From NCBI RefSeq assembly GCF_910592395.1, contig NC_088308.1:27729501-27793500 (forward strand): a DNA stretch of 64,000 bases. The letters run 5' to 3'. The notes beneath the pieces are model-generated. The model was not told where the DNA came from and searched no databases. It worked only from the letters and a program-made list of their open reading frames with translations. Origin of the DNA: Lineus longissimus. Its lineage: Eukaryota; Nemertea; Pilidiophora; Heteronemertea; Lineidae. Within the stretch, counting starts at the first letter, position 1; each line of letters starts with the position of its first letter. Positions 14,118 through 64,000 of this stretch are shown here, piece after piece. A program made the position numbers and the translations under genes.

Positions 14118-32909
<18,792 letters not shown>

Positions 32910-58095: not shown

Positions 58096-61000
58096 TTACT
58101 CAATGACCGACTTATGTTTGCCCCAACCATGGAAGCACTTCGTAAAGCGTTTTGGTTCTTTGTACTTCAAACAAAGCAGCAGTTTTCTCGGCCTCTCCGG
58201 CTGTTTGTTTCTCAGGTGTTGAACATATACCTAAAAGAGATAAATGAAAATGACTTTGAGAATATTCACTACACAGCAGAATGCCAATGCCAGACAGCAG
58301 TGCAGACACCATGGACATCCTAAGACTGGCCCCTGCATCAGGATATACAACAGCAATTCTGTCAAGGAAAAACGGGGAACACAACAAGGCCTCGTTAATA
58401 GCTCACAGTTCGAAAAAGACTGTGTGTTTCACTCACCTGTGCACTCTTAAAAGCCAACTTGATTTCAACATCGCTTGTTTTCTTGCCCACCCATAAGAAG
58501 ACGAGTTCTCCATTATCAAGAATCATCACATCATCATCAGCCAAGTCATCCTGGAAATTAAGAAATACCAATGGTATAATGTGAAGTGAAAAGCAGGCAA
58601 ACTTTGGCTCAAATTCCCAGGACTTATAAGTTTGCCTGTGACAGTGCAACACCAGCGATGAAAAGATTCATCCCTTCTACTGTCATGTCGGAAATGTCCC
58701 CTCACTACACAGCTTCATGAGAAAGTTCATGAGAAATGAAAAAACTCTTACCTGACAGAAATCAGAACACTTCTCTGAAACAGTAAAGTAACCCTTCTCA
58801 TTTGAGCACCGAAACAATCGGGCATATCTCATGTAATCGGCCGTCTGCAATGGAAACAATGAGTTTTTAGAAATATGTTGAGAATGACAAGAACATGATA
58901 GGACAGCTCCAAAAGCACAAAGATCTCAACACAGAACTCTATCACACAAGCACCGCTGAGCTGTTCTGACACTTCCAGCGGGGAAGAAGCACATCCAACA
59001 CAAACACCAGAACACGAATTTCAGTTTTTGCAAATCTCACCTTTTCATACGGTTTTCTGCCACCAATACCAATCCAGAAGAAATTCTCAGGCTCATCACC
59101 TTCACTGATAATTTGAACACTGTGGTATTGCTGAAATAGATGATTACACAATCAATTGACTGAAGGTCCAGGGAGGCAAAGAGGCTAGGTCCTATGGAAG
59201 GACTCTCAAGACAGAACATGTTATAGTAAATGGTATATCTTCTGCATTCATCAGTACATAATGCAAGGAAAACTTTTAGAAGTGTTTTTTTATGAGTTTG
59301 TGCAATACATACTCAAATTTTACCCAGAATGTGGGAATACCCACCACCACCACCACCATCCCGCAGCTACACTTCAACATTTGACAGGTCTGACTTATCG
59401 CATACAATGAACAGATTTGCCGCAGGATTGACATGTTCAGAGCAAAGAATCATTGTAAAAGACACACATTAACATAAATAGATAACAAACAAAAGTTTTA
59501 CAACATTCAGATTCGGGGAAAAAAATTTCACCGCAGAAGGTGGAGTGACCCCCCCTGGACTGGACCCAAAATCTCACACGAATGAAAAGGAAAAGATATA
59601 AAATAAGCTGCAAGAGAAATCATTACATATCAACAATCAACAAACATCAAGAGTTTGGGATAAGCTACTTTACCCTTCTAAACCGAAACGTAGCTCTCCT
59701 CTGGTGCAGAAAGGAAAAAGCATTTCACGTGAACAACAAATATAACTTCAAAATCTTTTTAGGGGCAAAGTTTTTTAACTTAGGAGTTTGAGTCATATTG
59801 GGCCATGGGGATTGAATGATAATGGTATCAAGATTTTGTTGAACTTGTTAAAAACACAACCAATGTTGCATCAGGGCAACGAGTAACAACAAACATTGTG
59901 AACGAATGGTCTCTTTTAAAATATTTTGGTTGGCTCTGAAAAGAGCCGTTTGGGTCTTTCCTTGTGATGTATCATTAACAATCCTCATCACTGTCACTTG
60001 AGCTTTCTGACTGTTGGAACAATCGCGCAGCCAGCTGCATCCTGATGTCAGCAATCTCGTCAGCTTTCATATTGGCATACTCGTAGAAAGCTGTTCGCAC
60101 GCCCTCCAATGTGACCAGATGGAGACGGAGAGTATACCTCATGGCTCGGTTGCCGGCGGCATTAGCAAGACGGTGTCGGTGATGAAGCCCTTGAAGTTTT
60201 CTATCAATGACGGAGAGCTGCTGACAGGCCTTGACAAATTTCATCTCGGCTTCATCCAACTGACTGTAGAGTCGATTGTGGCTTCTGAGAATAGCAGGCA
60301 TGATGAAGTACTGACAAGGTGCTGAAGTAGATATGCTATCTAACTAGACAAATCAGGTTGTGATGATATTAGAATGTACCAGGATATTTTATACCAGTAA
60401 GTCTGACGGGTGGCAGGCCTGAGAAAGTCAATTATTGACACACAAGTGAGACATAACTTAGTAATTAACAAGTGAGTTAATTACTCATGGATGTTTTCTA
60501 GCAGGACACTAATTAGATTGTATCAGACAACTAATTACTTATGGTCCAAGCCTAATTCCATTTACTGACCTCATCAGATGACATTTAGCAAACTGACAGT
60601 TGTTGATAGCGAAAACACAAACAGCTCAATAATCAATTGCAATGATGAGGCAACAGTTAATCACACAAATCACAACAACTGCAAACAGCGTAATCAGAGT
60701 GTTCATGACAAGATGTCACCAATTAACATTTTAACGCTAATTGCCACATTAATTAGTGACATCTCGTACTAGAGTGATTAGGGTATAAAACCTTGTCATC
60801 TTCTCAGTAGTTCATCACTTTCTCAACTCATCACAAGAAATCAATATCACCATGGATAAGCAGAAACTTGACCAGCATTACCAAGCCCTCCTCCAGGATA
60901 GCCAGTACAAGTATCGGAAAGCTTGCCAACAAGTCAAGATCCTCAACAGACAACTCAATACCCTCCAGGACAGGTACAATCTAGCAACACGAGAACACAG

Positions 61001-64000
61001 CCGGGCTGTCTACCACAGTCTGCGGTTACAGCTGGTCACACTAGAGGGCGTCAGGAACGCATTCTATGAATATGCACGTCGGAAAGCTGCTGACAAGAAG
61101 GAACTGCTGGTGAAGATTTCTGGTGAGAATATCAGCCATCAGAGACAGCATCGTTAGCAGGGATGATCTGTTAAAGGCTCTTTTCAGGGCCATCACAAAT
61201 ATTTTAAAAGAGATAAACTGTTACACAACACTTTATTAGTATGACCTTGATTTCACTATCAGCACTGAAATTTGTTCTAAAGACTTTGAAGCTGAATAAG
61301 ATATCAATACACCTGTCCTACATATCACAGCTGCTCCTCCCCTTGCATGTTACGTTAAAGAAGGCAGTCACCTCAGAAGATTCAGTATTTCATGTAGCTT
61401 ATGTACACAATATGTACTGTATTTAGGGTCTGTGAATGTCTTGGACCCAAACATTTGAATGATCCCAACTGGCAGAACTTGTAATACAAAAGACATTGTA
61501 CTCACCCCATACATTTCATTAGCCATCTCCTCTGCAAGTTTAGCATCGTCAGGATCAGCATGATTCCCAATCCAGACATACACGATTCCTTGGTCCATTG
61601 TCTCAAATGGCACCTTCAGAATGTAACTGGAAAGTGAACAAGAAGTTCAAGTTATAAATTAGCCGAATGCAGACTTCAGCTGAATAGACTAGCATTGAAA
61701 GAACTGACAATATGGAAGTAAGCTTAATTTATCATACTCACCAAAATTCTGAATTCAGCTGTGAAGCATCGGCATTGCACTGAAATAAGACGTTTAGAAT
61801 GAAATATCACATCTCGAATAACAGACACAAATTCAAACATGTGTTTAAGGCAAGCCATTCAGTTGTGGATCTCAACATATCCGAGGGGAAATAATCCCAA
61901 AATAACTATGGCATTTTCTCACCTGGATACATCTTGTTGCGAGCAGACTACCATTCGATCGGATGTGGAAGAATTCCGTCTGCTCAACAATTTCATCACC
62001 TCCCTGTGGCCTCTTGCCATCATGAATGACAAACTTTCTCTTAAAGTGTGATAAGAACTTCAGGTTTTCTTGTTGCTGAAAGGATAAGGTGAACGAGGTT
62101 AAGATCCAGCCACCAGCAGTAGATGAAGTGAGCATTACTCTTGGTCGTCATGGATCAACGGCCACATATTGGGAAATAACGAGTCGAGAAGAGAAGCCTT
62201 TCATTCTTACCTGGTGCGTTCTACAAACTTCCAATTTCTCTCCAAAAAGTGTCTCAAACTTCTTCTGTAAACTGAATGTGAAGGTGAGCCAGCCCATGTT
62301 ACTGGCGTGGCGTCCTTGCCAGAAGTACACAGTACATTTAAAGTCATCTTCTGGCAAGTCATCTTCATCAACTTCCTTGTCCTCCTCCCCCTCTGGCAGC
62401 TCAGGGGGAACCCAGTAGCGACACAGGAACACGTAGCAGTCTTCACTGTAGAAGTGCCCTGAAAATGGAAACCGAAACCTAACAAAAGATGACAAATGAT
62501 TGCAATGATGAAGAATAAGGTCACCATACAGAGACAAATCAAGAAATTTGCTGCTGTTCGACAGACACAACTTACCAATTTCTCCTTCAGGCAGACGTAC
62601 AAACTTCTTTCCTTCCAAGACGAAGCTCTCCATTCCATCAAGATCCTCGTTCCATTCCAACATCAACTGTTCCTGGAAAGAAAAGATTGATCAGAAAATA
62701 AGTATTGGTTGCGCTGTAAAGAAACATGACAATAAAGGCATTATGTAGGCACCTTAATTCACAACAGTTAAGGCAAAGGCCCTAATCTATCAGCGGAGAC
62801 AAGGAACACTATTATATTCAAAGTACAATCTATCTGGAGACTTACAGCCTCTTCCTTTGGCATTGGAGGCTGTCTTGGCATAAACAAGGCAGACAGATCC
62901 GTCTTGATCTGATCTCGCTCCATGATTTTCTTTATATCAACACCTCTCCTAATCACCGATTCTGAAGTCCTGGTGTAGTCCACAGCCATCACATCATCCC
63001 AACCATGGAACTTACTCTTGAACACCTGCGACTCGGCACTGAAACAAGAACCGAACCTGTGAATCCAAAAGCCATTTAGTGTGACTGTGAGGTCCAAAAG
63101 GGAGACTTGCCTGATGATCCCAATTGGTGCGCAACTGTAGTGCATGCAAATACACTCCCAACTTGGTCTTGGAGGAGAAGTAGTCTGGAGAATAAGCAAG
63201 GACCTTGGAATTCTAGAATGAGCTGACCTCATCACCTAAAGTCATGTGACATGTTAATAAGGTATCGGGCACCCCTTCCAGGCCATGTCTAGTAGAAATA
63301 GGTATATTGTACTCACCCTTCCATGCACCTCTGAACCAGCACAAAGTCTGGCCGCTTGATCATGCCCTGGATCTCTTGAGACAACTTCAAGGCTGCCGCA
63401 CGGATCAGCCGAGTTGACTTCTTACCAATCCTAGGGAGAAATGTGAACAGTACTGATAAGGATTGCATTAGAACATGTCGATGCTAGTACCAGTCCTTCA
63501 GGAGGTTTCTCACACATATTGTTAGCGTTCTGAAACGTCTGAACTGAGTGCAGCCCAGGCAATATTTTAACTTAAATTGGTTCATCGAGATCCAAAAACA
63601 AATCCACATTTTCAGGTCATTTATGGCAGATAACATTCTGATCTGTCAATTTTCATTATCATTATTGTTATCATCAATATTTTACTTACCAAATGTAAAG
63701 CTCGGAATTCAAATCAAGGAGATAGACACATTTAGTGTTCAGCAAATTTTGGGTTAGCTTATGCTGGGGAAGTTCAACTGAAATGAAATAGATACATGTA
63801 CCGTTGACTTTATTCAATACAAGGAGTCAGCAGAGTCCTCAGGATACTACCGTGGACAATGCTGTTAATCAAAGAAACACATTATTTCTAAATCAAATGA
63901 ACCTACCTTGAGGCAGCTCCAGATATCCCATGCCAAGTCTGACATTATACAGGATGGGAGGTGATGGCTTGAAGTTATCAGGAACCCAATCTTGGATTTC
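58096..64000 (-). CDS. FLII: Flightless-1 (gelsolin-family actin regulator), 3' part
   Basis: Actin-binding and nuclear coactivator protein with LRRs (outside the window) followed by gelsolin-like repeats (inside). Exons read (high to low): 64000-63907 (partial), 63777-63690, 63430-63317, 63038-62846, 62672-62576, 62458-62211, 62075-61923, 61779-61743, 61626-61506, 59130-59041, 58844-58752, 58550-58437, 58230-58096. Diagnostic motifs are WVPPELP after [79 protein letters not shown] and [22 protein letters not shown], ending with ERPRKL and FTKCFHGW. The 2,375-bp intron 59131-61505 holds the divergent gene pair and is by far the largest here. The gene is cut by the right edge of the window, so its start is not seen. 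Confidence 0.95.
59341..59360 (+). repeat. Short (CCA)n microsatellite
   Basis: Six CCA units in an FLII intron. Confidence 0.7.
59910..59917 (-). promoter_or_regulatory. Histone-downstream-element-like purine box (minus gene)
   Basis: AAAAGAGA begins 14 nt after the stem-loop. It lies in AAATATTTTAAAAGAGA, a 17-base string found identically after the partner gene's stem-loop. Position and purine content suit a U7 snRNA pairing site. Confidence 0.65.
59932..59947 (-). terminator. Histone-type 3' stem-loop of the minus-strand nested gene
   Basis: GGCTCTTTTCAGAGCC, a perfect 6-bp stem with TTTC loop matching the metazoan replication-dependent histone consensus, 27 nt after the stop at 59975. 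The flanks (CAAAC before, AACCA after) fit as well. Confidence 0.9.
59975..60301 (-). CDS. Unrecognised 108-aa protein, intronless, histone-type 3' end
   Basis: I do not recognise the family. The sequence reads as mostly helical with heptad-like spacing of Leu/Tyr/Val over residues ~8-90. It shares KACQQ, R-x-L-x-x-L-x-x-R, [12 protein letters not shown] and AFYEYA with the product of the divergent neighbour (roughly 40% identity by eye), so the two are paralogues. The C-terminus is specific: an acidic Ser/Asp tail ([11 protein letters not shown]) resembling CK2 sites or the tails of acidic chromatin chaperones. The gene is intronless, with TATAAAA 86 nt before the ATG, and is followed by a canonical histone stem-loop and purine box. 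It lies in an FLII intron on the same strand as FLII. Inferred: S-phase-coupled, non-polyadenylated expression. It is not H1, H2A, H2B, H3 or H4. Confidence 0.8.
   Translation of the reverse strand: MPAILRSHNRLYSQLDEAEMKFVKACQQLSVIDRKLQGLHHRHRLANAAGNRAMRYTLRLHLVTLEGVRTAFYEYANMKADEIADIRMQLAARLFQQSESSSDSDEDC
60387..60393 (-). promoter_or_regulatory. TATA box of the minus-strand nested gene
   Basis: TATAAAA (GGTATAAAATATCC on the minus strand), 86 nt before the ATG at 60301. Confidence 0.7.
60784..60790 (+). promoter_or_regulatory. TATA box of the plus-strand nested gene
   Basis: GGGTATAAAACC, 61 nt before the ATG. An initiator-like TCTCAGTAG lies ~30 nt downstream, implying a leader of only ~40 nt, as in histone genes. 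Confidence 0.75.
60852..61157 (+). CDS. Unrecognised 101-aa basic protein, intronless, histone-type 3' end
   Basis: Paralogue of the 59975-60301 product. Start context ATCACCATGG is strong. Residues 1-90 look helical and coiled-coil-like (repeated L/Y at heptad spacing). They include YRKACQQ near 21-27, the core [20 protein letters not shown] near 57-76, and a basic end (ISHQRQHR) in place of the acidic tail of its neighbour. It is rich in Lys, Arg, Gln and Leu, with an overall basic charge. TATA box upstream, histone stem-loop 18 nt after the stop, purine box after that. It is antisense to FLII within its intron. The function is unknown; a chromatin, germline or S-phase role is only inferred from the 3' end. 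Confidence 0.82.
   Translation: MDKQKLDQHYQALLQDSQYKYRKACQQVKILNRQLNTLQDRYNLATREHSRAVYHSLRLQLVTLEGVRNAFYEYARRKAADKKELLVKISGENISHQRQHR
61176..61191 (+). terminator. Histone-type 3' stem-loop of the plus-strand nested gene
   Basis: GGCTCTTTTCAGGGCC: 6-bp stem (one G-U pair), TTTC loop, 18 nt after the TAG. Flanks are AAA before and ATCA after, close to the histone consensus. Confidence 0.88.
61206..61213 (+). promoter_or_regulatory. Histone-downstream-element-like purine box (plus gene)
   Basis: AAAAGAGA begins 14 nt after the stem-loop, within the 17-base string AAATATTTTAAAAGAGA also present after the minus gene's stem-loop at the same spacing. Confidence 0.65.

Follow-up and report, generated by a model that had tools for sequence, protein, structure and literature searches.

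The closest described systems to the locus reported here are the replication-dependent histone genes, which are short intronless ORFs with a TATA element, a short leader, a 3' stem-loop and a downstream element, arranged as divergent pairs in tandem arrays. To our knowledge, this type of RNA ending has been thought to be confined to histone genes. No account of non-histone genes with histone stem-loops was noted among the literature titles and opening parts of abstracts surveyed, a weak test of absence from print, and the family may have been published under another name. The gene family described here has the same gene layout, including the divergent pairs in tandem array. Unlike the replication-dependent histones, it encodes non-histone proteins predicted to be helical hairpins, and its main array is on contig C12, while the histone cluster is on contig C6. 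The pair lies in a 64-kb stretch of the genome of Lineus longissimus (391 Mb, 30 contigs); this whole stretch is called the window below. The features of the pair were as follows.

59975-60301, minus strand: ORF A (P0001), 108 aa with an acidic C-terminus, family HMM score 121 bits
60852-61157, plus strand: ORF B (P0002), 101 aa, basic, family HMM score 116 bits
60302..60851, no strand: divergent promoter region common to A and B, 550 bp from ATG to ATG
60387..60393, minus strand: TATAAAA of gene A, 92 nt upstream of the ATG
60784..60790, plus strand: TATAAAA of gene B, 68 nt upstream of the ATG
59947-59932, minus strand: histone-type 3' stem-loop of gene A, GGCTCTTTTCAGAGCC, 27 nt past the stop
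61176-61191, plus strand: histone-type 3' stem-loop of gene B, GGCTCTTTTCAGGGCC, 18 nt past the stop, with one U-G pair
59910..59926, minus strand: histone downstream element (U7-site-like) of gene A, 17 nt, AAATATTTTAAAAGAGA
61197..61213, plus strand: histone downstream element (U7-site-like) of gene B, 17 nt, AAATATTTTAAAAGAGA
59131..61505, minus strand: host intron of a gelsolin-repeat gene, approximate, with GT and AG placed by eye from the splice consensus

Both ORFs were complete and single-exon, and the divergent intronless pair of 108 and 101 aa with a TATAAAA for each gene in the intervening 550 bp, recognized in the earlier note, was confirmed. The same applied to the histone-type stem-loop and the identical downstream element at both genes. 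Against the Rfam Histone3 model (RF00032), the stem-loop of gene A scored 36.9 bits, above the gathering threshold of 34, and that of gene B 30.2 bits, below this threshold, with an E-value of 2.9e-6 in that search. The stems of both were fully paired, and the same 17 nt started 5 nt past each stem. A stem-loop pattern allowing up to two mismatches was found at just these two places in the 64 kb, and 100 shuffles of the 64 kb gave a mean of 0.15 and a maximum of 1. The earlier observation of a histone-style pair of non-histone genes was thus confirmed. Its placement in an intron of Flightless-1 was supported as to the nesting, because minus-strand frames flanking the pair on either side encode gelsolin repeats, a strong one at 58398-58652 with 38.4 bits in Pfam (cut-off 21) and a weak one at 62151-62690 with 17.5 bits, below the cut-off. 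The ORF pieces adjoining the host intron had no Pfam match. The host is presumably Flightless-1, the name given in the earlier note; the homology established here is of the gelsolin type.

When A and B were compared with 5.8 billion predicted proteins, 18 relatives were detected, and the iterated search raised this number to 196, of which 120 were listed; one relative among the matches listed was from the annelid Lamellibrachia satsuma. The precomputed annotation gave no Pfam domain for any of these 120. In a Pfam scan of 124 family proteins at E up to 0.1, no histone was present among the 25 of 50 families listed, which by eye were just coiled-coil-like noise, and neither A nor B of the window gave a histone match in Pfam at E up to 10. 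The profile search suggested in the earlier note thereby agreed with its claim of non-histone proteins, and its undescribed family of small proteins could be substantiated by relatives both within the L. longissimus genome and from elsewhere, without a Pfam model. A motif, EG.R..YEYA, was recognized in the family, with the E, the G and the last A invariant across the 124 proteins. Among the 117 tails scored for net charge, leaving out seven proteins without the exact motif, 114 were negative, one was neutral and two were positive, the latter being those of B (P0002) and its near relative P0003.

A and B showed 44% identity across 78 aa and are paralogues, with a dN of 0.51 and a saturated dS of 3.43. 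Each of them had a close relative in other sources, P0004 for A and P0003 for B. In a tree of the two classes, constructed from 23 proteins of the L. longissimus genome and 39 of the 122 relatives, the B genes of the window and of the tandem array described below clustered with P0003 and P0008 (support 94), and the same B group joined a pair at 22 Mb of contig C1 (support 95). Window A was placed with P0004 (support 99), whereas its grouping with array A had a support of 50 only. Because window and array B grouped with P0003 and P0008, the B class is older than the array; such an age is likely, though less certain, for the A-B pairing itself.

The histone fold consists of three helices. AlphaFold2 models on family alignments instead gave two long helices joined by a short turn, at residues 2-49 and 52-105 for A (pLDDT 90.1, 124 sequences) and 2-48 and 51-100 for B (pLDDT 92.6, 62 sequences), and a histone fold was rejected for both proteins on these two-helix hairpins of pLDDT 90 and 93. 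Foldseek with the model of A detected no solved or viral structure at E < 0.001, just generic helical hairpins, with ING4 and ING3 found at E 0.52 amid many of them. Like the dimerisation domains of ING proteins and further two-helix hairpins of solved structure, the model is a long antiparallel helical hairpin, a likeness that is probably one of generic shape and not of relationship.

The genome contained 105 matches to A including the window pair, of which 83 were on contig C12. Most of these 83 belonged to tandem arrays in which an acidic and a basic gene form each divergent pair. The array units measured 2.64-2.67 kb at 8.99-9.01 Mb and 2.81 kb at 9.41-9.48 Mb. By script, 75 genes of 94, 100 or 101 aa were counted in these arrays, one of them a frameshifted B, together with 32 divergent A-B pairs having an ATG-to-ATG gap of 371-398 nt. 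The window promoter and one array promoter had a few 9-10 nt words in common, such as TGGCAATTA, which may be due to chance. Copies outside the arrays were scattered, with pairs on C7, C17, C8 and at 22.07 Mb of C1 and the others single; one partner of the C8 pair was decayed. The earlier note had described opposite tails, one acidic and one basic. This pairing recurred in the array, where net charge was -7 to -2 in 37 A copies and +8 to +11 in 37 B copies, but the tail of array B alone was near neutral, and the pairs on C7 (-3/-2), C17 (+1/-7) and C1 at 22.07 Mb (+10/+12, convergent) deviated. The last locus (L041, C1:22072500-22078000) has two basic members facing each other, both with stem-loops.

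The arrays were not composed of A-B pairs alone. The C12 loci (L009-L026, e.g. L019) gave 42 matches to 5S rRNA and 44 to U5 snRNA, spaced with the array units and in some cases cut at locus ends, so that the tandem array combines U5 snRNA, 5S rRNA and the A-B pair. 5S rDNA has been described in linkage with histone and snRNA genes, among others (PMC3464664). The C12 array is likewise a linkage of 5S with other multigene families, U5 and the A-B pair; unlike the linked histones, its protein genes are a non-histone family. Because of the 5S/U5 linkage, the high copy number in the array may reflect hitch-hiking rather than demand. Within the array, dN/dS was 0.40 for A and 0.49 for B, corresponding to weak constraint, and the variable codons changed the residue in 24 of 34 cases for A and 17 of 25 for B. 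dN was lower than dS in every comparison that yielded a dS, two window-to-array comparisons being saturated.

The stem-loop was retained over most of the family. A strict stem-loop, by a pattern of our own and not Rfam's, was present within 60 nt past the stop in 88 of 94 family ORFs of at least 88 aa in the fetched loci outside the window (74 of 77 on C12 and 14 of 17 at scattered loci), a count that leaves out shorter pieces and decayed copies and includes near-duplicates. Most of the 88 are array copies with almost the same sequence, and among the scattered ORFs those on C6 and C29 are close duplicates, as are those on C15, C5 and C10. Conversely, the 254,516 bases fetched contained 100 strict stem-loops, 96 of which came after a family ORF. 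The six exceptions comprised one ORF truncated by the locus end, one whose stop was lost so that the frame enters the stem-loop, two whose stem-loops deviate from the pattern by a single position, and two that lack a stem-loop altogether, C4:3624032 and C1:17180751. The former encodes 129 aa and had the top family HMM score among the genome loci scored (147 bits). A third member, C19:14368094, has an intron inside the ORF and also lacks a stem-loop. The earlier note had named homologues without stem-loops and decayed ORFs as findings that would speak against it; both were found in this genome, each as a minority, with three such members beside the 88 of 94 that carry a stem-loop, and with some copies decayed.

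As for RF00032, array A ends passed the gathering threshold (42 in the C12 loci) and no array B end did. Of the scattered loci that were scanned, L027, L028, L030 and L041 had one passing end each, and L029, L032, L033, L034 and L036 had none. The stem-loops of these last five loci and of the array B ends are by the strict pattern only. Covariation was analyzed on 18 ends, two from the window, four from C12 and twelve of the seventeen scattered, the rest being two without a stem-loop and three near-duplicates. Two stem positions changed on both sides, among U-A, C-G and U-G types. There were 10 compensatory cells, and the score was 0.291 against 0.164 for shuffles, none of 500 being as high, although for two of the five measures the real alignment did no better than shuffled ones (236 and 323 of 500). 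The full pairing of 108 of 108 cells is partly built in, because the 18 ends were chosen for having a stem-loop.

The histone genes of the same genome served as control. The Pfam Histone model had 38 matches, the majority of them in a cluster of its own at C6:5.74-6.04 Mb. Three ends of this cluster were examined, of genes that we take to be one H3, one H2B and one H2A from their C-terminal peptides. All three had a stem-loop and AAAAGAGA in a like AT-rich context, with AATCGTT following in two, and the AAAAGAGA core is common to them and the window A element. Several of the 18 family ends compared by eye, e.g. those on C15, read like the C6 histone ends. With such similar downstream elements, the family would offer a similar target to the same U7 snRNP. 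Only the H2A end passed the RF00032 gathering threshold; real histones thus also miss it. In the H2B stem-loop of this cluster (L044), read by eye as CGTCCTTCTCAGGACG, the first pair is C-G and not G-C, and is missed by the GG..CC pattern.

Over the whole genome, at least 74 RF00032 matches were found, 72 of them above gathering, which is a lower bound as only 75 candidates were scored. By location, 42 of the 74 were in the C12 arrays, nine in the C6 histone cluster, five at scattered family loci, two in the window and 16 elsewhere. The last group consisted of one H1-like gene (L047), one remote family member (L049) and 14 apparent copies of a dispersed repeat (L046, L048, L050-L061), of which 12 shared at least 135 nt with another copy, and L054 and L058 at most 100 nt. 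In these copies the stem-loops were often doubled, and remnants of decayed ORFs and a downstream element accompanied them; a single frame was scanned and gave no clear Pfam family. The repeat may be a mobile element using histone-type 3' ends. Histone-type stem-loops can accordingly travel, because this repeat also carries them.

Signs of the same RNA element were present in relatives from other sources. Some of their ORFs passed the stop position of their kin, usually via W, where TGA was presumably read as W. A strict stem-loop was encodable in the tails of nine of the 122 relatives (P0014, P0016, P0033, P0051, P0068, P0085, P0089, P0099 and P0101), which fell into about five tree clades, some being close kin. 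Shuffled tails gave a mean of 0.041 and a maximum of 2 in 1000 rounds, and shuffled whole proteins a mean of 0.87 and a maximum of 4 in 100 rounds. The peptides at the stem-loop were in three frames, GSFQSH/GPFQDH, RLFSEP/WPFSGP and KALLRA/MVLLRA, suggesting that the RNA is conserved and not the peptide. Near misses by eye were P0029, P0083 and P0108, and a relaxed pattern was passed by P0083 only.

The pair is very probably part of a multigene family of animals that encodes two-helix hairpins of about 100 aa, acidic A and basic B, with mRNAs finished by the histone pathway. It is improbable that the genes are ordinary polyadenylated ones with stem-loops that are mere remnants or have some other function. 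The word A[AT]TAAA was found within 100 nt past the stop in 68 of the 74 array copies (37 of 37 for A and 31 of 37 for B), so that poly(A) may be used in the array, and three members lack a stem-loop, one of them with introns. Such poly(A)-type signals near stem-loops are, however, also reported after real histone genes (PMC1924863), and neither gene of the window has AATAAA or ATTAAA within 400 nt past the stop. Paralogues that have diverged from one another, moreover, retain the stem-loop, in which both sides of the stem have changed together, and the downstream element, and relatives elsewhere encode stem-loops in their read-through tails.

A mobile or selfish multicopy element carrying histone-type 3' ends, which is quite improbable, would account for the many copies, at least one pair within an intron, the decayed copies and the 14 of 74 RF00032 matches in the apparent dispersed repeat. 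The window pair is also flanked by a 41-nt inverted repeat, 88% complementary, but this consists merely of the two 3' elements facing apart. dN stayed below dS wherever dS was obtained, though array constraint was weak, A and B have close relatives in other sources (P0004 and P0003), and the array repeats regularly, with 5S and U5 genes in its units. That A and B are histones, or proteins with a histone fold, that have diverged to an extreme degree, as the histone-like gene layout, 3' ends and size would suggest, is highly improbable in view of the missing histone matches for A and B at E up to 10, the 25 of 50 Pfam families listed for 124 members, which include no histone, and the models with two long helices and a short turn at pLDDT 90 and 93.

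For the multigene family with histone-type 3' ends, the sequences directly support that the family exists and is conserved, that it has these 3' elements, and that they resemble the genome's own histone 3' elements. The earlier observation stands and reaches well beyond the window, to a non-histone family with histone-type 3' ends that spans one animal genome, with signs of it in other sources. SLBP would bind the stem-loop of the family mRNAs, the downstream element would pair with the U7 snRNP, and cleavage without poly(A) would follow, and these mRNAs would most likely rise and fall with histone mRNAs. From the analogy with histone mRNAs, we infer transcripts without poly(A) that become more abundant during S phase, in oogenesis or at early cleavage, and the A and B proteins would probably be abundant in S phase or early embryos. 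The members without a stem-loop, one with introns, would be replication-independent forms, as with replacement histone variants, from which they differ in not being histones.

It is likely that the family represents a second, ancient class of SLBP/U7-type genes in animals, paired A/B hairpins made with histones and borne in tandem arrays, which is probably widespread in invertebrates and would have been overlooked for having no known domain and being absent from poly(A)-selected libraries. From charge, fold type and expected timing, a chromatin role might tentatively be considered, namely an abundant chromatin- or histone-associated protein made alongside histones, possibly as an A-B four-helix dimer with the acidic tail on histones or on the basic partner; the acidic tails and basic hairpin core would fit a histone escort. 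The DNA-packaging supply line of the cell may thus also make a second kind of protein. If so, this would change what the loss of SLBP or U7 and the decay of S-phase mRNAs are taken to affect, and would point to an unknown protein produced alongside histones. The family also opens to testing the old question of what the histone 3' end is for, and whether its need is limited to histones.

Two further observations were made. The remote family member L049 (C8:10118860-10119380), with a score of 13.5 bits, has an acidic N-terminal stretch and a stem-loop. In the window, long repeats resembling a minisatellite occupy positions 18514-20553, and several frames on each strand are open across them.
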